NCBI GenBank assembly: GCA_036504735.1 | Contig: DASXUQ010000010.1 | Location: forward strand, 434,001-498,000 | Length of the DNA stretch: 64,000 bases | Origin: a bacterium | GTDB lineage: Bacteria; Electryoneota; RPQS01 | Direction of reading: 5' to 3' | Shown: in pieces, positions 46,124-57,955 of the stretch | Layout of the letters: the number at the start of each line of letters is the position of its first letter | Numbering within the stretch: position 1 is the first letter of the stretch | Position numbers and translations under genes: made by a program | The notes under the pieces: model-generated | The model's input: only the letters and a program-made list of their open reading frames with translations | Told to the model about the DNA's origin: nothing | Database searches by the model: none

Positions 46124-46909
46124 ATGACTCTTGAAAACCTTCTGCTCGAACAGGACGGCCCCGTTGCCGTCGTTACGGTGAATCGTCCGCGCGCTCTGAA
46201 TGCCCTCAACATTGCGACGATGATGGAACTGGAAACGGTCATCTCCGATCTGGAGAAACGGCCGGATGAGGTGCGCGCGGTGATCATTACCGGAGCGGGG
46301 GAGAAGAGCTTTGTCGCCGGTGCGGATATTCCGGAGATTCATGAACTGGATCTGATTGCAGGAAAAGCTTTTGCCGCACGTGGACTGCGCATCTATTCGA
46401 TGATTGAAAAACTGCGCGTGCCCGTCATCGCCGCGGTCAACGGCTTTGCCTTGGGCGGCGGCTGCGAATTGGCCATGGCCTGCCATCTGCGCATCGCGTC
46501 CGAAAACGCGAAGTTCGGCCAGCCGGAAATCAATCTCGGCATCATTCCCGGCTATGGCGGCACGCAGCGTCTGCCGCGCCTTGTGGGTCGCGGACGGGCG
46601 CTGGATCTGCTGCTGACCGGGCGGATGATTACCGCAGCGGAAGCTCTCCAATGGGGTCTTGTCAACGCCGTTGTCCCGCCGGCAGAGTTGCTCCCCACAG
46701 CCCGCAAACTGGCCGCTGATCTTGCATCCAAGGCTCGTCTCGCATCGTCAGCGATTCTTGAAGCGGTGGATGAGGGCTTGCAGGTGGGACTCGATCAGGC
46801 GCTGCAGGTGGAAGAGAATCTCTTTTCCATTTGCTGCGGCACACAGGATATGAAGGAAGGCACTTCGGCCTTTCAGGAAAAGCGCAAACCCGAATTCATG
46901 GGACGCTGA
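46124..46909 (+). CDS. Enoyl-CoA hydratase/crotonase family protein
   Basis: The 261-aa crotonase-fold protein probably hydrates short-chain 2-enoyl-CoA. The oxyanion-hole residues are in SFVAGADI and GFALGGGCELAM. Glutamates equivalent to both catalytic residues are present, in GGCELAMACHL and FGQPEINLGIIPGYGGTQRL. It lies 23 bp after hutU and 5 bp before hutI, an unexpected place for a fatty-acid or amino-acid degradation enzyme. A role in the same catabolic route is possible but not shown. Confidence 0.9.
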   Translation: MTLENLLLEQDGPVAVVTVNRPRALNALNIATMMELETVISDLEKRPDEVRAVIITGAGEKSFVAGADIPEIHELDLIAGKAFAARGLRIYSMIEKLRVPVIAAVNGFALGGGCELAMACHLRIASENAKFGQPEINLGIIPGYGGTQRLPRLVGRGRALDLLLTGRMITAAEALQWGLVNAVVPPAELLPTARKLAADLASKARLASSAILEAVDEGLQVGLDQALQVEENLFSICCGTQDMKEGTSAFQEKRKPEFMGR

Positions 46910-46914
46910 GACGC

Positions 46915-48174
46915 ATGGCAGATGTGCTGATCCGCAACATAGGACTGCTGGCATCTCCGCGGTTTGCTGACCGTGACGAGACACTCCGCAGCGTCGTGAA
47001 GATCCAGGGCGCGGCCATCCTCATTCAAGATGGCCGCATTGCTGATGCAGGCCCCGAGGCGGATGTTTTGCGCCGCGTGCCGCAGGGAATTCCCCATTAT
47101 GATGCCAAGGGTTGCCTTGCCCTGCCCGGCCTGATCGATTGCCACACCCACCCGGTATTTGTCGGTAATCGCGCCGCCGAATTCCATCTGCGCAATGCGG
47201 GCAAAACCTATCTGGAAATTGCGGCGGCGGGCGGCGGCATTCAAGCGTCCGCGCGCAAGGTGCAGGCTGCTCCCGTGGAGCAGATCGTCGCAGAGTCGTT
47301 GCCGCGCTTTCACCGGTCTCTTGCTTGCGGCGTCACCACCATCGAAGCCAAGTCCGGCTATGGTCTCGACTGGACAGGCGAACTCAAACTGCTGGATGCG
47401 CTGACGGAAATCAAGCGGCGCATCCCCCAGCGAATGCACCGCACCTTTCTGATTCATGCCCTGCCTTCCTCCTATGCCAACCGCCGCGCGGAGTTCTGCG
47501 ATGAGGTCGTGACGCGGATGATTCCGGCCGTGGCGGCGGGGAAACTCGCCGCATGGGTGGATGTCTTCTGCGAGACCGGCGCTTTTACGGTGGAAGAGTC
47601 GCGGCGCTTTCTGCTGGCGGCCAGGGAACATGGTCTCGGCTGCATGGTGCATGCCAATCAGTTCGGCCATTCCGGCGGAGCGTTGCTGGCGGCTGAGATT
47701 GGCGCGCGCAGCGCGCATCATCTCGAGTATCTGAACGATGCGGAAATGGACGCCATGGCGGCGGCGGGTGTGGTGGCGGTTGCGTTGCCTGCCAGCGTAT
47801 TCTTCCTCGGAAATTTGCCGTATCCCTCCGTCAGGACTATGATCGCACACCGGATGCGTGTTGCTGTCGCGTCGGATATGAATCCCGGTTCGTCGATGAC
47901 CGAGTCGCTGCCCTTCTGCCTCACGGCCGCGGCGGTCTACTGCAAGATGACCCCTGAAGAATTGCTCTGGTCGGTGACGCTGGATGCGGCGCGGGTGCTG
48001 GATGCGGATCATGATGTCGGTTCGCTGGAAGTGGGACGTCACGGCGACGTAAGTCTCTGGAACATTCCGGATCTGGAATCCTTATCCTATCACTTCGGAG
48101 ACATGCGCGCGGCTGCCGTCCTGATGAGCGGCGACCTCGTGTGGGAAAACTGCGATGCAACCCGGCACTATTGA
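46915..48174 (+). CDS. hutI: Imidazolonepropionase
   Basis: HutI opens the ring of imidazolonepropionate to give formiminoglutamate. The 419-aa amidohydrolase has the metal motif DCHTHPVF (about 75-82), FHLRNAGKTYLEIAAAGGGI, the His-rich VHANQFGHSGG and SDMNPGSS for the metal-binding Asp. The ATG at 46915 gives MADVLIRNIG; the longer frame from 46831 lies inside the crotonase gene. The end overlaps the next gene by 20 nt. Confidence 0.95.
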   Translation: MADVLIRNIGLLASPRFADRDETLRSVVKIQGAAILIQDGRIADAGPEADVLRRVPQGIPHYDAKGCLALPGLIDCHTHPVFVGNRAAEFHLRNAGKTYLEIAAAGGGIQASARKVQAAPVEQIVAESLPRFHRSLACGVTTIEAKSGYGLDWTGELKLLDALTEIKRRIPQRMHRTFLIHALPSSYANRRAEFCDEVVTRMIPAVAAGKLAAWVDVFCETGAFTVEESRRFLLAAREHGLGCMVHANQFGHSGGALLAAEIGARSAHHLEYLNDAEMDAMAAAGVVAVALPASVFFLGNLPYPSVRTMIAHRMRVAVASDMNPGSSMTESLPFCLTAAAVYCKMTPEELLWSVTLDAARVLDADHDVGSLEVGRHGDVSLWNIPDLESLSYHFGDMRAAAVLMSGDLVWENCDATRHY

Positions 48175-48991
48175 CATCGGCACGTCCGGCTGGAAGTTCG
48201 ACGATTGGGCGGGTACATTCTACCCACTGCGCGTGCCGCAAACCAAGTGGCTCGAATACTATGCCGCTCGCTTTCCCATCGGCGAACTCAACAGCACGTA
48301 TTATCGCATCGCTCCCACATCCGTGTATGAGGCGATTGCCCGGAAAACTCCGCCGCAGTTTCGGCTGTTTGCCAAAGTCCATGCGGATGTGACTCACAAA
48401 CGCGAGAATCCGGAAACGTCGCTGCGTAATCTGCTGATTGCTCTCGATCCGCTGCAAAGTGACGGCAAACTGCTCGGCCTGCTGGCCCAATTTCCCGGCA
48501 ACTTCCGGTATGTGCCGGAGAGTGTGGATTACCTGAAGAGTTTGCGCGATCTCTGTAAAGGCATCCGTCTGTGCGTGGAATTCCGCCACCGTAGTTGGGC
48601 CGGTGACGAAGCTCTTCAGCAGATCAGGGAGCTTGACTTGACCTGGGTCTCTCCCGACGAGCCGCCGCTGCCTGATCTGATGCCACGCCGGTTTGTGGCG
48701 ACGTCGGATATTCTTTATGTGCGTCTGCATGGACGGAACGCCGCGGCGTGGTACAATCGCGAAGCCGGCGACCGCTATGACTATGAATACTCCACGGAAG
48801 AACTGACGGAAATCGGCCGGGAGATTCTTGCTGCGGAGGCGCCCGCCAGGCGCGGCTACGTGTTGTTCAACAATTGCTACGTGGGAAAGGCTCCACGCAA
48901 CGCGTTGTGGTTGAAAAACTACTATGCCGCTTTGCTGGAAACCGGAGGAGATCAAGAGCCGTCTGATGGCTTCACTCTTTCAGCACATTAG
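48155..48991 (+). CDS. DUF72 (YecE-like) protein
   Basis: The 278-aa product begins IDIGTSGWKFDDWAGTFYP and contains LNSTYYRIAPTSVYEAIARK, LLAQFPGNFRYVPE and CVEFRHRSW, the recurring DUF72 motifs. The fold is a TIM barrel of unknown activity in the literature I know. It overlaps hutI by 20 nt and the diguanylate cyclase gene by 26 nt, so translation of the three is coupled. Confidence 0.9.
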   Translation: MQPGTIDIGTSGWKFDDWAGTFYPLRVPQTKWLEYYAARFPIGELNSTYYRIAPTSVYEAIARKTPPQFRLFAKVHADVTHKRENPETSLRNLLIALDPLQSDGKLLGLLAQFPGNFRYVPESVDYLKSLRDLCKGIRLCVEFRHRSWAGDEALQQIRELDLTWVSPDEPPLPDLMPRRFVATSDILYVRLHGRNAAAWYNREAGDRYDYEYSTEELTEIGREILAAEAPARRGYVLFNNCYVGKAPRNALWLKNYYAALLETGGDQEPSDGFTLSAH

Positions 48992-50399
48992 CCAATCGGC
49001 CAACGCCGACCTCTGGGAACGCTTTCGGCTGCCGTCTATGGAACTGGACAGGTTGATCGATACGGCGCGGGCGCTGGGGTTCTCCGTCCGGCAGCCTCCC
49101 TACGCGAATGACACCGGATCGTTTGTCCAGATCGATGATGCGCAGCGGGTGCTGTGTATTGCCGAGCCCTCGGGCCTTGCGCCGTCACCCTTTCACATTG
49201 ACCCCGAACCGTTCTCCGTGGCTTTCACCGATTCCGCCGAGGCCATCCGCGAGTACCGGAAGTGGACCGCTGCGTCCGAGGACGAATTGCCGGTGGTTCT
49301 GGATGCCGATGGAGTGCCCGCAGAGTTCGGCGCTCCGCTGGCGGTGATTCTGCGCAATGAGGAGCGGGCCGCGTGGCTCAGCCTCGAGGCTACAGTCCTT
49401 CGCTCGATGCAGACGCTCAACCAGCTCGATCTCGAGGCGGAACCGCTGTTCATGACGCTCAGTCACACGGTTCATGAAATGCTGGCCCCTGACCTGCTCG
49501 CCATCCGTATGGAGTCGCCCGGGGATTTCTGGCCGGGCAAAACACCGGAGTGGGTGTGGGTGGATGCGCGCGACGATCTGACCGACGTTATTCCCGCCTT
49601 GACACCGCGGCTCCAGCGATTACTGTACCGCCGCGAGCGCAGCATGTTCATCGAGGATATTTTAGCGGCGCCGGACGTGCTGGTGAATTCGGATGAGCAG
49701 ACGCCGCCGCTGGCGTCGTCTTTCCTGCTCCCGCTGATTTGCGGCGCCAAGTCGATTGGCATGCTCATGCTGTTCTACACGCGGCGGCTGTCGCCGCTTC
49801 CGGGTGAAACCGAAGCGGTGGAAGTGGTAAGGCACGAGCTATCCCATTTACTGGACCGCAGCCGCACCCATCTGCTGATGCAGCGTATGGCGACGGTCGA
49901 TGGCTTGACCAATCTCTTCAATCACCGTTTCTTCCGCGACCAGTTGCGCACCGAGTACCAGCGCGCGCTGCGCTATGGAAAGATGATGGCGGTGATTATG
50001 GTCGACATCGACAATTTCAAGAGTTACAACGATACCCACGGCCACCTCGCGGGAGACCGTGTGCTGTCAGAGACCGCGCGCACGATTAAGGCCGCCGTGC
50101 GGGACATCGATTTTGTCGCGCGCTATGGCGGCGAGGAGTTCGCGCTGATTCTGCCGGAAGTGGATGCCGGCGGCGGCATGGTGGTGGCGGAGAAGATTCG
50201 CAAGGCGGTGGAAGCTCAACGGTTCATTTCCGAAGATGGCGAAGCCATCGGTTCGATTACCATTTCCTGCGGCGTGACCGATAACACCGGCGCAAACGGG
50301 CCGGAGGAACTCATCGCGCGCGCCGATCGCGGCCTGTACTGGGTAAAGCGCCATGGCCGCAACCGCGTGCGTCTTTCCGTCGCGGAGCGTGATGAGTAA
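48966..50399 (+). CDS. GAF-like diguanylate cyclase (GGEEF)
   Basis: The 477-aa soluble protein has a sensor region (about 130-310, GAF-like: LFMTLSHTVHEMLAPDLLAI, SSFLLPLICGAKSIGMLMLF) and a complete GGDEF domain. The catalytic signature is RYGGEEFALIL near 388 and an RDID inhibitory site lies five residues before it, so product inhibition by c-di-GMP is expected. The start at 48966 is placed 15 nt after a GGAGGAG, which is rather far. There are no membrane spans. The signal sensed is unknown. Confidence 0.9.
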   Translation: MASLFQHISQSANADLWERFRLPSMELDRLIDTARALGFSVRQPPYANDTGSFVQIDDAQRVLCIAEPSGLAPSPFHIDPEPFSVAFTDSAEAIREYRKWTAASEDELPVVLDADGVPAEFGAPLAVILRNEERAAWLSLEATVLRSMQTLNQLDLEAEPLFMTLSHTVHEMLAPDLLAIRMESPGDFWPGKTPEWVWVDARDDLTDVIPALTPRLQRLLYRRERSMFIEDILAAPDVLVNSDEQTPPLASSFLLPLICGAKSIGMLMLFYTRRLSPLPGETEAVEVVRHELSHLLDRSRTHLLMQRMATVDGLTNLFNHRFFRDQLRTEYQRALRYGKMMAVIMVDIDNFKSYNDTHGHLAGDRVLSETARTIKAAVRDIDFVARYGGEEFALILPEVDAGGGMVVAEKIRKAVEAQRFISEDGEAIGSITISCGVTDNTGANGPEELIARADRGLYWVKRHGRNRVRLSVAERDE

Positions 50400-51888
50400 G
50401 CCGCCGTTGAAGGTACTGTTCGTTACGTCCGAGGTGACGCCGTTCAGCAAGACCGGCGGGCTGGCGGATATCAGTGCCGCCCTGCCTAAGGCGCTCGCCG
50501 CACAGGGGTGTGACGTGCGCGTGATAACGCCGCGCTACGGGTTCATCAGCCGCGAGAAGTACGGCATCCGGCTTGACGGCACGGGGGCCGGATTTTCCGT
50601 GGACCTGCACGGGCATTCGGTCAAGGTCGCGCTCTCCCACGCTGCCGATTCGCAGCCGGGGCTTCAGTTTCTCTTTGTGGAGTGTGACCCGCTGTTTGAC
50701 CGCCCCGGCCTGTATGTGGATCCCTTTACGAATCGCGACTATATCGATAACGATTACCGCTTCATCGTTCTCTGCCGCGCCGCAATGGAGGCGTGTCGCC
50801 TCGGCGAATGGACTCCGGATATTGTGCATTGCAACGATTGGCAAACAGGGCTGGTTCCGCTGTATCTGCATTCGGCGCGCGTCGCGGGCGAATTGACGCC
50901 ACTGCGCTCCGTGTTCACCATTCACAATATTGCCTATCATGGCATGTTTGGCGGCGACGCGGCTCGCCGGGCGGGAGAAGCCCAGCGCTATTTCTTCCCG
51001 GGCGGTCCGGTGGAATTCTACGGCTATCTGAGTTTTCTCAAAGCAGGACTGGAATTCGGCGACGCGCTCAATACGGTGTCTCCGACCTATGCGCGTGAAA
51101 TCGAAACCACCGGCGATTACAGTTTTGGTTTCGACTCGATCCTGCGGGCGCGGGGGGAACTGTCGGGCATTCTGAACGGCATCGATTACGATGTCTGGAA
51201 TCCCGCCACGGACCCCGCTCTTGCCGAACGCTACGACGCCTCGTCGCTCGAAAAGAAGGAACAGAACAAACGCGCGCTGTGTGCCCGTATCGGATTGGCC
51301 TATGATCCGGCGGTGCCGCTGATCGGAATGGTCACGCGCATCGTGGCTCAAAAGGGTTTTGAAATCATTGCGCCGGTGCTGCGCGAGATTCTCAGTCTGC
51401 CCGCGCAACTCGTGCTGCTGGGGAGTGGCGATCCCTATTTCGAGCATCTGTTCCGCGAAGCCGCGCATGTTTTTCCGGACCGGCTCGCGGTGCACATCGG
51501 ATATGATGAGGACTTCTCGCATCAGATCGAAGCGGGCGCGGACATGTTCCTGATGCCGTCCAAATTCGAACCCTGCGGCCTGAATCAGATGATGAGCATG
51601 CGGTATGGCACGCTGCCCATCGTTCGGGCTACGGGCGGCCTGGCCGACACGGTGATCGATGCCGGCGCAGGTGCTTCAAAGGGCACGGGGTTCAGCTTCA
51701 GCGACTACACTCCCGAAGCGCTGCTGCAAACGGTCAAACGCGCAACGGCGGCCCGTGCCGACGCAACGCTCTGGCGCGCCCTGCAGACCAACGCCATGGC
51801 GCAGGACTTTTCCTGGAAACGATCCGCCAAACGGTACATGGACCTCTATGCAAAGACCCTCAAGGCCAAGCCGCGGGTGATCCTATGA
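50392..51888 (+). CDS. glgA: Glycogen synthase
   Basis: GlgA adds glucose from ADP-glucose to growing glycogen. The 498-aa GT-B enzyme has KTGGLAD (20-26), the ADP-glucose loop, HCNDWQTGLVPLYL, the C-terminal MVTRIVAQKGF and the catalytic-region MPSKFEPCGLNQMMSMRYGT. The ATG at 50392 overlaps the cyclase by 8 nt. No other glg genes are present nearby, so it is isolated from glgB, glgC and glgP. Confidence 0.97.
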   Translation: MSKPPLKVLFVTSEVTPFSKTGGLADISAALPKALAAQGCDVRVITPRYGFISREKYGIRLDGTGAGFSVDLHGHSVKVALSHAADSQPGLQFLFVECDPLFDRPGLYVDPFTNRDYIDNDYRFIVLCRAAMEACRLGEWTPDIVHCNDWQTGLVPLYLHSARVAGELTPLRSVFTIHNIAYHGMFGGDAARRAGEAQRYFFPGGPVEFYGYLSFLKAGLEFGDALNTVSPTYAREIETTGDYSFGFDSILRARGELSGILNGIDYDVWNPATDPALAERYDASSLEKKEQNKRALCARIGLAYDPAVPLIGMVTRIVAQKGFEIIAPVLREILSLPAQLVLLGSGDPYFEHLFREAAHVFPDRLAVHIGYDEDFSHQIEAGADMFLMPSKFEPCGLNQMMSMRYGTLPIVRATGGLADTVIDAGAGASKGTGFSFSDYTPEALLQTVKRATAARADATLWRALQTNAMAQDFSWKRSAKRYMDLYAKTLKAKPRVIL

Positions 51889-52769
51889 GACGTCTGCTCG
51901 TAGCGCTGCTGCTCTGGGTGCCTTGTGCGCTCTTTGCTCAAACCGCTGCCAGGTGGACGAAGATTCTGCCCTCGGCAACGGTCCAGTTGCGCGATCCGCG
52001 CTGCGTCTCGGTTTCGCCCGAAGGGCTGATTTACATCGCCGATACCGGACATCACCGCGTGGTTGCCGTCGATACGACGGGCCGCCTTGTGGCGGAGACG
52101 GGCGGCCTCGGCAATGCCCACGGCCAGTTCCGCTGGGCGCGGGCGATCATCGCCGACCGTGGCAATGCGGTGTGGGTTCTTGATTACGGCAACCGTCGCA
52201 TCGAGCGCTTCACCCGGTCGCTGGAGTACCAGGGCACGTTCACGATCACGCTGCCGAATGATGATACTCCGCACCAACCGGAAGCTATGGCCATGTCACC
52301 GCAGAGTGATCTGTATATCTACGATCGCGATGCCGGCCGCCTCGTGCGTTACGATCCGCTCTTCAGCGCGCAGGCCGAAATAGGCAGCGGAGGCGGTTCG
52401 CAATTTGTGACGAATGTCGCCAGCATCGCCTGCGTTTCCGCGCATGGCCTGTTCTGGTGGGAGCGGGGCAGCAACGAAATCCGGCATGCGGACGGTCTGC
52501 TGAATCCTGCCGCGCCTCTGAGGCTCGGCGCCGCGCCCGAAGACCTGCGTCTCGCGCCGGCGGATTCCTGCCTGCTGTATGCCACGCCCGCGGGGATCTT
52601 TCGCCAGTGCTTGCAGGCGGCGCCGTCGGATACTTTGTTCTCGCTGGCCGAGCTTTCGGCGGCGGGAGTCACTCATATTGCCGGTCTGGCCATGGTGCCG
52701 GACCATGTTCTCTACGTGTTGGACGGTGGCACCGCCGCCGTATATCGGGTCAATCTGCTGCGGGAGTGA
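51885..52769 (+). CDS. Secreted NHL-repeat beta-propeller protein
   Basis: The 294-aa product has a signal peptide (MRRLLVALLLWVPCALFAQT) and repeated propeller blades such as LRDPRCVSVSPEGLIYIADT with GHHRVVAVD and GNAVWVLDYGNRRIERF. NHL propellers usually bind proteins or carbohydrates. It overlaps glgA by ATGA and its stop directly abuts the next start, so it is likely made together with the outer-membrane protein that follows. It is probably periplasmic or surface-exposed. Confidence 0.75.
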   Translation: MRRLLVALLLWVPCALFAQTAARWTKILPSATVQLRDPRCVSVSPEGLIYIADTGHHRVVAVDTTGRLVAETGGLGNAHGQFRWARAIIADRGNAVWVLDYGNRRIERFTRSLEYQGTFTITLPNDDTPHQPEAMAMSPQSDLYIYDRDAGRLVRYDPLFSAQAEIGSGGGSQFVTNVASIACVSAHGLFWWERGSNEIRHADGLLNPAAPLRLGAAPEDLRLAPADSCLLYATPAGIFRQCLQAAPSDTLFSLAELSAAGVTHIAGLAMVPDHVLYVLDGGTAAVYRVNLLRE

Positions 52770-55700
52770 ATGCCCACGACGCGACGGTTTAACGTCCGCA
52801 ATGGGCGGCGTGCATCCAGGCCGCTTGCTATTCTTCTTCTGATGTGGGTGCCGCTGGTTGCGGCAGCGCTTCCGCTGCGGTCGGGGTCTGTGACCTTCAC
52901 CGCAACCGCGCCGCGCGACACGCTGTTCACCCTGCCCGTAACGTGGGTGGTGCTGGACTCCGTGCATGTGTCGCGTAATGGAACGCCTATCTCCGAGTTC
53001 GCCGATTGGCGCATCGCCGAACCGGGTAACCGGATCTGGATCTACCGTCCGCTGGGACCCAGCGATACGCTGCGTGTGGCGTATGTTTACGAACCGATTC
53101 CGCTTTACCGCTCGTACGTGCGCCACAGCTTAAGGGAAATCGGACGCGAAACCACGGCGCATGCTGCGGGAGATACGTCGCGCATGGTGCCCGCGTTCGC
53201 ACCGCAGAGTGCCGCGCTGGAAGGGTGGAGCCGCCTGGTCAAATCCGGATCGCTGATTCGCAGCGTGCAGGTGGGAACGGGACAGGACTTGCAGCTTGAA
53301 TCCGCGCTGAATTTGCAGGTGCAGGGACGTGTCGGCAGAAATGTGGACGTGGTGGCGGCGTTAACAGATCAGTCCACGCCCATCCAGCCCGAGGGCACCA
53401 CCGAGACGCTGAACGAGCTGGAAAAAATTTTCGTCTCGGTGCGCAGTCCGCATCTTTCCACCACGCTCGGCGACTACACGTTGGATCTGCCCGGCGGCCA
53501 GTATGACGGCTACACGCGCAAACTCACCGGAGTGTTCGGCGAGGCCAACTACGGCGGCATCAAAGCGATGGGCGGTGGCGCGGTCAGCCGGGGCCAGTTC
53601 TTCACCAACACGTTCAACGGGCAGGAAGCCAACCAGGGTCCCTATCCGCTGCACGGCAAGAACAATGAGATCGGCATGGTGGTGCTGGCCGGGACCGAGA
53701 AGGTCTGGCTGGACGGGCAGTTGCTGCGGCGCGGCGAAGACAACGATTACACCATTGATTACTCGTCCGGCGAAGTAACCTTCACCCCGCGCCGCGTTAT
53801 CACCTCCGATTCGCGCATCGTGGTGGACTTCGAGTACGCCAAGGAAGACTATCAGCGCTTCTACAGCGCGGGTCGGATTGAAGGTGCCACCGCTGATGGT
53901 CGTCTGGGCGGCACGGTGACCTTCATCAATGAATCCGATGACCGCACGCGCCCGGTGGGGTTCGTGCTGAATGATGCGGACCGCGCGCGTCTTGCCGCCG
54001 TCGGCAACAATCCGGATTCGGCCATTGCCTTTGCCGGCGACACCACCAGCGCGCCGCGCGAATATGTGCAGGCGGACACCACGCTCGACACGCTGCACTA
54101 TGCGATTTTTGTCTACGCGCCGCATGACTCGCTGCATCCATTGTGGCACGTGCTCTTTGACGATTTCGGTTTGGGCAATGGTGAGTACGACGCCGCGGCG
54201 GACACCTTGGGCCACACCTATTTTCGCTGGGTCGGGCCGACTCGCGGGCGCTACCGTCCCTTCCGGAGGCTGCCGCTCCCGCAACAGCATTCCGTGGCCG
54301 ATGTGCGTGTAAACGGTTCGCCTGTCACCGGACTGACTCTTACGGGCGAAGTGGCCATGAGCAGCCGCGACCTGAATACCTATTCGTCTCTCGGCGACAA
54401 GAACAACAACGGCACGGCCTACACCGCAGGGGCGCGGTTGGACCGCAAAGAGCCGCAACTCTGGTTCGTCAAGCCGTACAGCGTTGGGGCGGACGTTCAG
54501 ATCCGGCATCGCGATCAGCGCTTTGTCGAACTCAGCCGGGTCTCCGAAGTCGAATTCCAACGGGACTGGGACGTCGGTGTGAATAATGGAGTCGCCGAGA
54601 CTATTCGCGAGGGCAATGCGCGGGTTAATCCGGTTCAGAATTTGTCCCTGTTCGGCGGCTATGGAGATCTCAGCCGCGCGCAGGCCTTTTCTTCACAGCG
54701 CCGCACGCTGGGGATGTCGGCCAGCCTATGGCAATGGAATCTCGCGGCAAATCATCTGTCTCTCCAAAGCGACGATTCGCTGACTCAGCGCCGCGGCAAC
54801 TGGATCCGCCAGAGTGGCCGGCTGAACGGAATTTTGGGCAAGGGATTTCTGGCGAGGTTTGCGCCGCGCTTCGGCGCCGACCGGGAAAATAAAAAAGACC
54901 GAATCGGCACGACCCACGCCGGTTTCCGCTATCTGGAATACTTCAGCGGCATGGGAATTTCGCTGCCGCATGATCTGAGTATGGATGGCGAATACCGCGA
55001 CCGCAGCGACGATCTGCTCGGCAGCGACGGAGTGTTTCGCAAATCGGCTCATGCCTACACTGTCTCCACCGAAACCGCTTGGACACCGGCAGACGGCGGA
55101 CGGACTTCACTGCGTTACGTGCACCGCGAAAAATCCTATGCCACGCTGGACTCGTCCAACATCTCAACGGATGTGGGCCGGCTCGAAACCCTGATCGCGT
55201 CGAATAACCGCCTGATCGAGGCCAACGCGACCTATGAAGTGGCCAAAACGCGCAGCCAGAATCAGGTTTTGATTGCGGTGCAGGTGCCGCCCGGCACGGG
55301 CAACTACCGGTTCGAGAATGGCCACTACATCCCCGACGATCAGGGAAATTATCTGCTGGTGCCGCGTTTCACCGGCGATTTTCAGCCGGCGACGGAACTC
55401 AATCTGAACACGCTGATTTCCGTGCGCCCCGATGAGCTTCTTCCGAATCAGACGTCGCCCTGGCTGCACGCGCTGTCCACCGAAACCGAGGTGGTAATCG
55501 AAGAGAAGACGCGGCGCAACCTGAGCGCAAGGCTGTTGCTGCTCGATCAGTCTCAATACCGCGGCGATTCGACGCTCTCCGGCGACCTGTCCTTCCGCCA
55601 GGATCTCAACGTCTGGCGGCTCAGCCAGAAGTTTGCGCTGCGCATGCGCTATCACGAAACGCAGTCGCTGCAGAATCAATATTTGAACGGCGGACAGGGG

Positions 55701-56216
55701 CACACGCTGCGGGAAGGCAGCGCCCGCGTTCGCGCGAAATATTTTGCCATGTGGCGCGGCGAGACCGAAACCACGGTCTCGCGCGAGACGTTCCACTATG
55801 GTTCGGGAATCTTCCCGAATCGCGATATCACCCGCTTCGATCTCTCCCAGATCAATACGGTCACGCTGTCGGACAAGTGGGAAACGGGCGCGGACCTGCG
55901 CTTCAGCGAAGCGCAGGACGAGCGCACATCCACGCAGATGAGCGTGAAGGAACTCAAGCCCCACGCCGCGCTGACGCTGCTGGGCAAGGGCCGTCTGGAT
56001 GCGGAATTCTCGTGGGTGCACGCGTCATCCAATAAGACGGCGATCCCCTTTGAACTGGGCCGGGGTGCCAACCGCGGCGAGAACCTGCGGTGGGATCTGC
56101 GGGGGACTTACCAGTTCGGCCAGAATTTCTCGGGATCGGTGAACTACACGGCGCGCCGCGACGCGGGAGAGCAGATCTTCCATACGGGCCGCCTTGAAGT
56201 GCGGGCGTCGTTCTGA
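52770..56216 (+). CDS. Giant outer-membrane beta-barrel protein
   Basis: The 1148-aa product has an N-terminal signal (ILLLMWVPLVAAALP). A periplasmic domain (about 35-200) follows, then the motif block TTLGDYTLDLPGGQYDGYTR, NQGPYPLHGKNNEIGMVVLA and DYTIDYSSGEVTFTPRRVIT (about 230-355). The remaining 700 or more residues alternate aromatic and polar residues like amphipathic beta strands and end RLEVRASF, a terminal Phe typical of outer-membrane barrels. Blocks like these occur in large SprA-like or unnamed surface proteins of FCB bacteria, as far as I recall. Its stop overlaps the Omp85 start by one base. Confidence 0.7.
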   Translation: MPTTRRFNVRNGRRASRPLAILLLMWVPLVAAALPLRSGSVTFTATAPRDTLFTLPVTWVVLDSVHVSRNGTPISEFADWRIAEPGNRIWIYRPLGPSDTLRVAYVYEPIPLYRSYVRHSLREIGRETTAHAAGDTSRMVPAFAPQSAALEGWSRLVKSGSLIRSVQVGTGQDLQLESALNLQVQGRVGRNVDVVAALTDQSTPIQPEGTTETLNELEKIFVSVRSPHLSTTLGDYTLDLPGGQYDGYTRKLTGVFGEANYGGIKAMGGGAVSRGQFFTNTFNGQEANQGPYPLHGKNNEIGMVVLAGTEKVWLDGQLLRRGEDNDYTIDYSSGEVTFTPRRVITSDSRIVVDFEYAKEDYQRFYSAGRIEGATADGRLGGTVTFINESDDRTRPVGFVLNDADRARLAAVGNNPDSAIAFAGDTTSAPREYVQADTTLDTLHYAIFVYAPHDSLHPLWHVLFDDFGLGNGEYDAAADTLGHTYFRWVGPTRGRYRPFRRLPLPQQHSVADVRVNGSPVTGLTLTGEVAMSSRDLNTYSSLGDKNNNGTAYTAGARLDRKEPQLWFVKPYSVGADVQIRHRDQRFVELSRVSEVEFQRDWDVGVNNGVAETIREGNARVNPVQNLSLFGGYGDLSRAQAFSSQRRTLGMSASLWQWNLAANHLSLQSDDSLTQRRGNWIRQSGRLNGILGKGFLARFAPRFGADRENKKDRIGTTHAGFRYLEYFSGMGISLPHDLSMDGEYRDRSDDLLGSDGVFRKSAHAYTVSTETAWTPADGGRTSLRYVHREKSYATLDSSNISTDVGRLETLIASNNRLIEANATYEVAKTRSQNQVLIAVQVPPGTGNYRFENGHYIPDDQGNYLLVPRFTGDFQPATELNLNTLISVRPDELLPNQTSPWLHALSTETEVVIEEKTRRNLSARLLLLDQSQYRGDSTLSGDLSFRQDLNVWRLSQKFALRMRYHETQSLQNQYLNGGQGHTLREGSARVRAKYFAMWRGETETTVSRETFHYGSGIFPNRDITRFDLSQINTVTLSDKWETGADLRFSEAQDERTSTQMSVKELKPHAALTLLGKGRLDAEFSWVHASSNKTAIPFELGRGANRGENLRWDLRGTYQFGQNFSGSVNYTARRDAGEQIFHTGRLEVRASF

Positions 56217-57955
56217 TGCGGTACGTTCTTTTCATAGCGCTGCTTCTCCTTGGCATGGCCCTGAACGCCACGGCCGCGGGTAAGTTCGTCTTCCACGGGA
56301 ACCGCAAGTTCTCGGGCGGGGAACTGCAGCAATTGCTTGATGTTTCCGATCCAACCTCCGCCGGTGCGGATACCATCGCGAGCCGTGTCAACGGCCTGGC
56401 GGACTCGCTCATCGCGCGCGATTTCCTCTTTGCCCGCGTGGACAGTTCTCACTGGGTCGATGGCCGGCGCGGACGGCGAGAATTGCACGTGTATCTGCAT
56501 GAAGGGCCGCTGGCGCGCATTTCGTCTCTGCGCTGGATGGGAGACAGCCTGAAGGTTTCGCCGTCCGTCAGAGGCAAGATCCTGTGTACGCCGGGATCGG
56601 TGTTTCACTGGAGCGATCTGCAATTCGACACCGATCTGCTGTTGACGTTCTTTGAGAATTCCGGCTATCCCTTCGCCAAAGTGGACGTCGCCAAACTGGA
56701 GACGGATTCGGCTGAAACTTCGGTGGACGTATGGCTGTCGGTTACAGCGGGGCCATTGACGCAGATCGAGTTCGTGTCGTTCCCCGGCAACCGGCAGACG
56801 CGCGACGCATTCTTGCGGCGTGAAACCCGTCTGCGCCGCAGCGAGCCGTATGATCAACGCAAAGTAGAATCGGCGCGGCGGCGCCTGGTGCGTCTGGATT
56901 TTGTGAAGCGCGCGGGACCGGGTGAAATCGCCGTTAATGAGGCCGGTCAAACCGGAGTGCGTTTCCCGATTGAGGAAGCGCGGTCGACGCGGCTGGATGC
57001 GGTGGCCGGTTACCTGCCGCAATCGAAAGGGCAGAAGGGGCTGCTCACCGGCCTGGTCAATGTGGAGTTCCTCAATCTGTTCGGTGGTGGCCGGCGTGCA
57101 CGCGTGCATTGGGAGCAGCCGGATCGCCGCGTACAGGCTGTGGATGTCGCCTACCGCGAGCCGTGGATCTTCAACCAGCCCCTCGCGCTGCGGCTGGATT
57201 TCGGGCAGCGGATTCAGGATACGCTCTATGTGACGCGCAAACTTGGCGCGCAACTCGAACTGGAGCTGCCGGGCAATCTGTCGGTGTGGGGCGCGATCCA
57301 TCAGGAATCCGTATTTGCCGACTCGCTGTCGTCGGCCCTCTACGGTTTACCCAACAGCAACACGACTTTCCTGGAATCCGGAGTGTCGTTCGACACGCGA
57401 GACCATCCCACCAATCCGCGTGGTGGCGTGTTCTTCTCCACTCAGGCAGGGACGGGCTGGCGCCACCGCGAACGCGTCGCGTCGTCCAACGAACCTGCCG
57501 GATCATTCCAGCAGACGCGCGGCGGCATCGACGCCGAAGTCGCCCGCGAGGTCTTTCCCTTCTGGATTGCGGATGTCAGCCTGCACGCCAAGGCGCTGGG
57601 CACGACCGAGCCTGAAGTGCTGCTGCCCGATCTTTACCGCCTTGGCGGCGCCCGCACGCTGCGCGGCTATCGCGAGGAACAGTTTCTTGGCTCGCGTGTG
57701 GGATGGACTTCGGCGGAATTGCGCTATTGGCTGGGTCCTGCGTCGCGCGTCTTCCTTTTTTGCGACGTGGGCAGTGCCTACCGCCAGCAACATGTAAATT
57801 CGGTGGCGCAGACCACTACCCTCGTCCGTGCGGGCTCGGGTATCGGACTCCGGCTGGAGACCGATCTCGGAGTCTGGGGATTCGATTACGGCATCGGACA
57901 GGGCGATAAGCTTTTGAGTGGGAAGTTGCATATCTCCCTGCTCAGTTCGTTTTGA
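56216..57955 (+). CDS. Omp85/BamA-TamA family outer-membrane protein
   Basis: The 579-aa protein has a signal peptide, about three POTRA-like repeats (GKFVFHGNRKFSGGELQQLL; ISSLRWMGDS with NSGYPFAKVDV; IEFVSFPGNRQTRDAFLRRE), and a 16-strand-type barrel with LGGARTLRGYREEQF, the Omp85 RGY/RGF motif (near 480). It ends in Phe (LHISLLSSF). BamA usually has five POTRAs, so this is closer to TamA or a dedicated assembly factor. Direct fusion of its start to the giant barrel gene suggests it inserts or exports that protein. Confidence 0.85.
   Translation: MRYVLFIALLLLGMALNATAAGKFVFHGNRKFSGGELQQLLDVSDPTSAGADTIASRVNGLADSLIARDFLFARVDSSHWVDGRRGRRELHVYLHEGPLARISSLRWMGDSLKVSPSVRGKILCTPGSVFHWSDLQFDTDLLLTFFENSGYPFAKVDVAKLETDSAETSVDVWLSVTAGPLTQIEFVSFPGNRQTRDAFLRRETRLRRSEPYDQRKVESARRRLVRLDFVKRAGPGEIAVNEAGQTGVRFPIEEARSTRLDAVAGYLPQSKGQKGLLTGLVNVEFLNLFGGGRRARVHWEQPDRRVQAVDVAYREPWIFNQPLALRLDFGQRIQDTLYVTRKLGAQLELELPGNLSVWGAIHQESVFADSLSSALYGLPNSNTTFLESGVSFDTRDHPTNPRGGVFFSTQAGTGWRHRERVASSNEPAGSFQQTRGGIDAEVAREVFPFWIADVSLHAKALGTTEPEVLLPDLYRLGGARTLRGYREEQFLGSRVGWTSAELRYWLGPASRVFLFCDVGSAYRQQHVNSVAQTTTLVRAGSGIGLRLETDLGVWGFDYGIGQGDKLLSGKLHISLLSSF

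Follow-up and report, generated by a model that had tools for sequence, protein, structure and literature searches.

Organization of the locus

Three contiguous genes for exported proteins lie on the + strand of the window, by which we mean the whole 64,000-nucleotide stretch of DNA that was analysed. They encode an NHL-type propeller, a giant barrel and a short Omp85; their coordinates, and those of three features of the barrel discussed below, are as follows.

51885..52769, + strand: exported NHL-type beta-propeller protein of 294 aa, with a signal of the signal-peptidase-I type (Pfam NHL, E=3e-13)
52770..56216, + strand: giant outer-membrane barrel of 1148 aa, with ~38 barrel strands and an N-terminal beta domain predicted by AlphaFold
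52947..53090, + strand: N-terminal beta module of the barrel, residues 60-107 (hhalign to a SprA module, probability 72%; strands at 37-107 in the model)
53634..53840, + strand: conserved block QGPYPL...DYTIDYSSGE of the barrel, residues 289-357, common to SprA and inserted after about the seventh predicted barrel strand
56181..56213, + strand: C-terminal beta-signal HTGRLEVRASF of the barrel, following the HTGR.EVRA.F pattern of its relatives
56216..57955, + strand: short Omp85 of 579 aa, with three POTRAs and a barrel, a signal of the signal peptidase I type and a C-terminal F (Pfam Omp85, E=2.5e-18)

The preliminary description of this DNA had reported three exported proteins encoded without gaps, and the reading frames do lie at these positions, tightly packed and with signal peptides visible in the sequence of all three. 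The barrel frame starts at the base right after the NHL stop (TGAATG), the Omp85 start shares one base with the barrel stop (TGATG), and upstream the GlgA stop and the NHL start overlap by four bases. These fused starts had also been taken as a sign of synthesis in a fixed ratio. They are weak evidence for it, because the preceding housekeeping genes HutI (imidazolonepropionase), DUF72, GGDEF and GlgA (glycogen synthase), which occupy positions 46831-51888, overlap in the same way. The order HutI, GGDEF, GlgA, propeller, barrel, Omp85 is kept in most families of the phylum, with DUF72 found in many and absent in some. The Omp85 gene has the barrel and RNase G as its neighbours in the window.

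Predicted architecture of the giant barrel

The barrel belongs to no Pfam, NCBIfam or PDB family, a sub-threshold NCBIfam match to SprA aside, and a PDB sequence search with its profile returned no match. The giant barrel proposed earlier emerges from the AlphaFold models of two members: the window protein itself, modelled from 29 sequences (pLDDT 81.7), and a distant Bacteroidota relative that is ~23% identical to it (pLDDT 82.8). The long barrel strands match one to one between the two models, which give a count of 38 strands, or 36 if the short hairpin before the conserved block is not transmembrane; the modelled barrel is expected to close. The QGPYPL/DYTIDYSSGE block singled out in the preliminary description is real, with nine residues (Q289, G290, P291, Y292, L294, G322, Y327, I329 and Y331) invariant in 30 members from several phyla. 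At the other end of the protein, 101 of 124 members terminate in F within the HTGR.EVRA.F pattern.

Foldseek placed SprA structures first for both models, with best E-values of 9e-11 and 5e-10. Superposition on SprA is nonetheless poor (TM-score 0.21-0.30), so the two proteins are alike in size and strand pattern rather than in exact shape. At the level of sequence, the NCBIfam SprA model TIGR04189 matches residues 305-356 at model positions 604-653 (E=7.5e-6; 23.4 bits against a cut-off of 200). In profile comparison by hhalign, one SprA module aligns with two stretches of the protein, residues 300-388 (96%, E=1e-9) and residues 60-107 (72%); beyond these two short modules nothing aligns convincingly, and the barrel was therefore rejected as a full-length SprA paralog. 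Usher homology was considered on account of the plug-like module near strand 7 and a Foldseek match to FimD, and was also rejected (hhalign E=0.77 with five E. coli K-12 ushers). Among relatives elsewhere, the barrel genes of three genomes each carry one in-frame TGA and one Omp85 gene carries an in-frame TAA (L010 (G033:C84), G362:C185, G393:C5 and G317:C6), reflecting either assembly errors or decay.

The short Omp85 among the Omp85 proteins of the genome

Members of the short Omp85 family have about 580 aa and three POTRAs. The window protein lacks a lipobox, lipobox-like strings occur in 2 of 22 members, and the examined members all have a C-terminal phenylalanine within a beta-signal pattern. 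The three POTRA stretches found with Pfam agree with the earlier count of about three rather than the five of BamA. The best NCBIfam match of the window protein is TIGR03303 (BamA; E=3e-36), at 124.9 bits, below the cut-off of 297. Against the TamA model, which has a cut-off of 625 bits, it scores 15.3 bits and a Flavobacteria-type member scores 27 bits; for the latter, TamA is the best NCBIfam match. The ShlB/FhaC profile of two-partner secretion (TpsB) also stays below its cut-off with the window protein (20.5 vs 22.7 bits), and there is no tamB beside the gene at the locus.

Seven Omp85 matches were found in the genome. One is a BamA of 829 aa, encoded on another contig together with neighbours named by eye as lpxD/lpxC/lpxA, dxr and rseP, which excludes the window protein as the only BamA of the genome. 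Given this separate BamA and a TamA/TamB-like cluster, the window Omp85 is an additional one, neither the general machine nor TamL. At L076:7050-13605 the BamA gene directly follows one for an exported protein of 1396 aa that looks TamB/AsmA-like by eye, and on contig C19 (L077) two Omp85 genes flank a second TamB/AsmA-like gene of 1247 aa, also named by eye. A full SprA, the other protein that the preliminary description proposed to look for, is present as well, in a 2,250-2,266-aa frame that does not neighbour the barrel. Across the phylum, one ortholog of the short Omp85 per genome is found in 37 of 39 genomes, and all 27 high-quality genomes have it; family f5 retains the gene as well, moved to a contig other than that of the barrel.

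Distribution and gene order

Co-occurrence of the three families, which had been suggested as a check, extends far outside the genome of the window. The barrel is present in all 39 genomes of the window's phylum (which includes LCP-89), in 70 of 79 KSB1/Calditrichota genomes and, at E<1e-50, in 174 of 297 Bacteroidota genomes. More than 500 relatives were returned when GTDB genomes were scanned, and the best 80 of these belong to LCP-89, KSB1, Calditrichota, Ignavibacteria and other Bacteroidota; a 12-sequence barrel alignment was used for this contig scan, the 29-sequence one being too diverse. Searches of plasmids gave no match, in line with a chromosomal family.

Adjacency was counted with family profiles in LCP-89, KSB1 and Calditrichota and in genomes related to these, with some genomes entering twice. 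On this count the gene immediately upstream of the barrel encodes the propeller in 56 loci, and the one immediately downstream encodes the Omp85 in 40. Together with the presence of the barrel in all 39 genomes of the phylum, this places the set far beyond chance. The full triad is contiguous in LCP-89-type genomes, in KSB1 and in one Calditrichota locus; these are also the places where the Omp85 adjoins the barrel, and elsewhere it is usually unlinked. Propeller and barrel genes are direct neighbours in LCP-89, KSB1 and Calditrichota, and also in one lineage of Bacteroidota, where four genomes retain the pair and encode the Omp85 at a distance of some 5-6 kb. Most loci of Ignavibacteria and of other Bacteroidota have no propeller next to the barrel; in most Ignavibacteria the neighbours of the barrel, named by eye, are Nudix, PfkB, RecO and DegP. 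KSB1 propellers have 3-4 NHL repeats and match a 6-bladed-propeller family.

Two further neighbours of the short Omp85 were observed. In genome G058 (L206:11409-13733), PorZ, the anionic-LPS delivery protein of the type 9 secretion system (T9SS), lies ~3 kb from it (NF052228, E=1e-120). In four genomes of one Bacteroidota lineage (L192, L193, L194, L195), a surface protein of ~1175 aa with Ig/cadherin repeats is encoded divergently beside it and is a possible client.

Joint retention of the Omp85 and the barrel

The genes of the short Omp85 and the barrel are usually unlinked in Bacteroidota, where the two families were compared genome by genome. A profile of the LCP-89/KSB1-type Omp85 (E<1e-40) found an ortholog in 147 of the 297 genomes, all of them barrel-bearing, and in none of the 123 genomes that lack the barrel. 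This left 27 apparent exceptions, 24 of which have a divergent Flavobacteria-type Omp85 that the first profile had missed; a Flavobacteria-type profile recovered these 24 and found nothing in the 53 barrel-less, SprA-bearing genomes tested with it. The Omp85 is thus present in 171 of 174 barrel-bearing genomes vs 0 of 123 barrel-less ones, 70 of the latter being covered by the LCP-89/KSB1-type profile only; the thresholds were set after the scores had been seen, and the E-values were transcribed by hand. The three barrel genomes with no Omp85 detected are G068, G122 and G326. The barrel match is weak in G068 and G122, two genomes of 2.1-2.4 Mb whose barrels are perhaps decaying or very divergent copies, but not in G326.

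SprA is found in 228 of the 297 Bacteroidota genomes, including 173 of the 174 with the barrel, and 55 genomes have SprA without it. We used a SprA tree of 60 genomes, 28 of them barrel-less, to correct for shared ancestry. The barrel changes at least eight times on supported branches of this tree, and the Omp85 follows it in 8/8 independent contrasts, close sister pairs included (sign test p=0.008); the link is therefore not the accident of a single clade. A partnership between the two proteins is well supported: where the barrel is kept, the Omp85 is almost always kept. Thus, of the private Omp85 triad put forward in the preliminary description, the Omp85-barrel pair stands on strong evidence, and the propeller is linked to it by adjacency only.

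A proposed dedicated Omp85-barrel module

The reading that we favour, and to which we give about an even chance, is a dedicated outer-membrane module with Omp85 and giant barrel as obligate partners, usually with the propeller as a third component, in which the Omp85 assembles the barrel or works with it. We infer the following mechanism. The 1148-aa protein would form a giant beta-barrel on the scale of SprA, carrying a beta domain in the periplasm and, after about strand 7, a module that resembles a plug. The short Omp85 would serve this barrel alone as assembly factor and would probably dock to it as well: it would recognise the barrel and help to fold it into the outer membrane, a task that the general BAM machinery may perform poorly on so large a barrel. 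The propeller would probably act as a plug or as an adaptor in the manner of BamB, bound either to the POTRAs or to the barrel on its periplasmic side, and the finished barrel would serve as a large envelope conduit. Insertion by the Omp85 and an adaptor role for the propeller, both proposed in the preliminary description, are plausible hypotheses. Assembly of the barrel is the simplest mechanism in view of what Omp85 proteins do. Some genomes keep SprA, a barrel of similar size, and lack this Omp85, so not every giant barrel requires a factor of its own.

The co-occurrence fits equally well with joint action of the two proteins on a third substrate. The Omp85 and the barrel could form one conduit for secreting or inserting other substrates, with the barrel as the pore and the Omp85 inserting or exporting the cargo, and with neither being the substrate of the other. 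A barrel of ~38 strands far exceeds a nutrient porin in size, the nearest-sized solved single-chain barrel, SprA, is a protein translocon, and the Ig-repeat surface protein is encoded divergently beside the Omp85 in four loci; no conserved substrate gene, however, travels with the barrel across lineages, and we regard such a conduit as rather unlikely. Lower still we place an accessory role in the T9SS, in which barrel and SprA would jointly handle part of the cargo or of envelope assembly. The near-constant presence of SprA in barrel genomes, the beta module common to both proteins and the PorZ gene near one Omp85 speak for such a role. Against it, 55 genomes have SprA and no barrel, the nesting of one distribution in the other may merely reflect clades that lost both genes, and in the genome of the window the barrel and SprA are not neighbours.

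Shared ancestry alone, with both genes ancestral and their losses in the same lineages due to unrelated causes, is already disfavoured and seems very improbable. Both genes are indeed missing from many small genomes, and barrel-less genomes cluster on the SprA tree; yet the independent changes on its supported branches are all concordant, even between close sisters, and the Omp85 is also missing from barrel-less genomes that are 3-7 Mb in size.

Retention or loss of the Omp85 together with the giant barrel across hundreds of bacterial genomes points to a widespread, undescribed envelope module. More tentatively, the module may be a new outer-membrane system, ancestral to much of Fibrobacterota-Chlorobi-Bacteroidota, in which a SprA-scale conduit of ~38 strands, with its own Omp85 and propeller, moves a macromolecule across or into the outer membrane. 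The barrel occurs in over half of the 297 Bacteroidota genomes and is nearly universal in two related phyla, and the family has been without a name, a structure or a function. Through its link with the Omp85 it offers a naturally occurring example of an Omp85 with a single client, and it makes the assembly of very large barrels directly testable in a tractable laboratory strain.

Comparison with known systems

SprA/Sov, the outer-membrane translocon of the T9SS, is a 36-strand barrel that acts within a multi-protein assembly (PMC10994853). The window barrel resembles it as a predicted giant single-chain barrel, in its top Foldseek matches and in the shared block 289-357 and N-terminal module. 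In contrast, it has half the length (1148 vs about 2,300 aa), lacks detectable similarity in sequence across the barrel proper and coexists with a true SprA in the same genome. Three barrels of Deinococcus radiodurans for which 38 strands were predicted (PMC9388160) agree with it in predicted strand number, the sole feature compared.

Like BamA, its best NCBIfam match, the window Omp85 combines a barrel with POTRAs; it differs in having three of them rather than five, in its sub-cut-off score and in the existence of a separate BamA in the lpx cluster. The propeller recalls BamB, a periplasmic propeller, in being encoded with an Omp85, which would be a functional analogy only: the window protein is of the NHL type and is not a lipoprotein. 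With TamL and the TamA-TamB system (TAM) the short Omp85 shares three POTRAs and a place accessory to BAM, whereas most of its members have no lipobox, no TamB is encoded next to it and the genome has a TamA/B-like cluster at another place.

The closest counterpart may be Fjoh_0402 of F. johnsoniae. Passages of PMC12045153, the one paper naming this protein that our literature search found, report it as a 'TamA' homolog with three POTRAs that is not a lipoprotein, has no tamB nearby and can be deleted without a growth defect; these passages do not link it to any barrel. It resembles the window Omp85 in each of these structural and genomic traits, and is probably an ortholog of the short Omp85 family, since TamA is likewise the top NCBIfam match of the Flavobacteria-type member. 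A linkage to the giant barrel would then explain an orphan Omp85, probably this F. johnsoniae 'TamA'.
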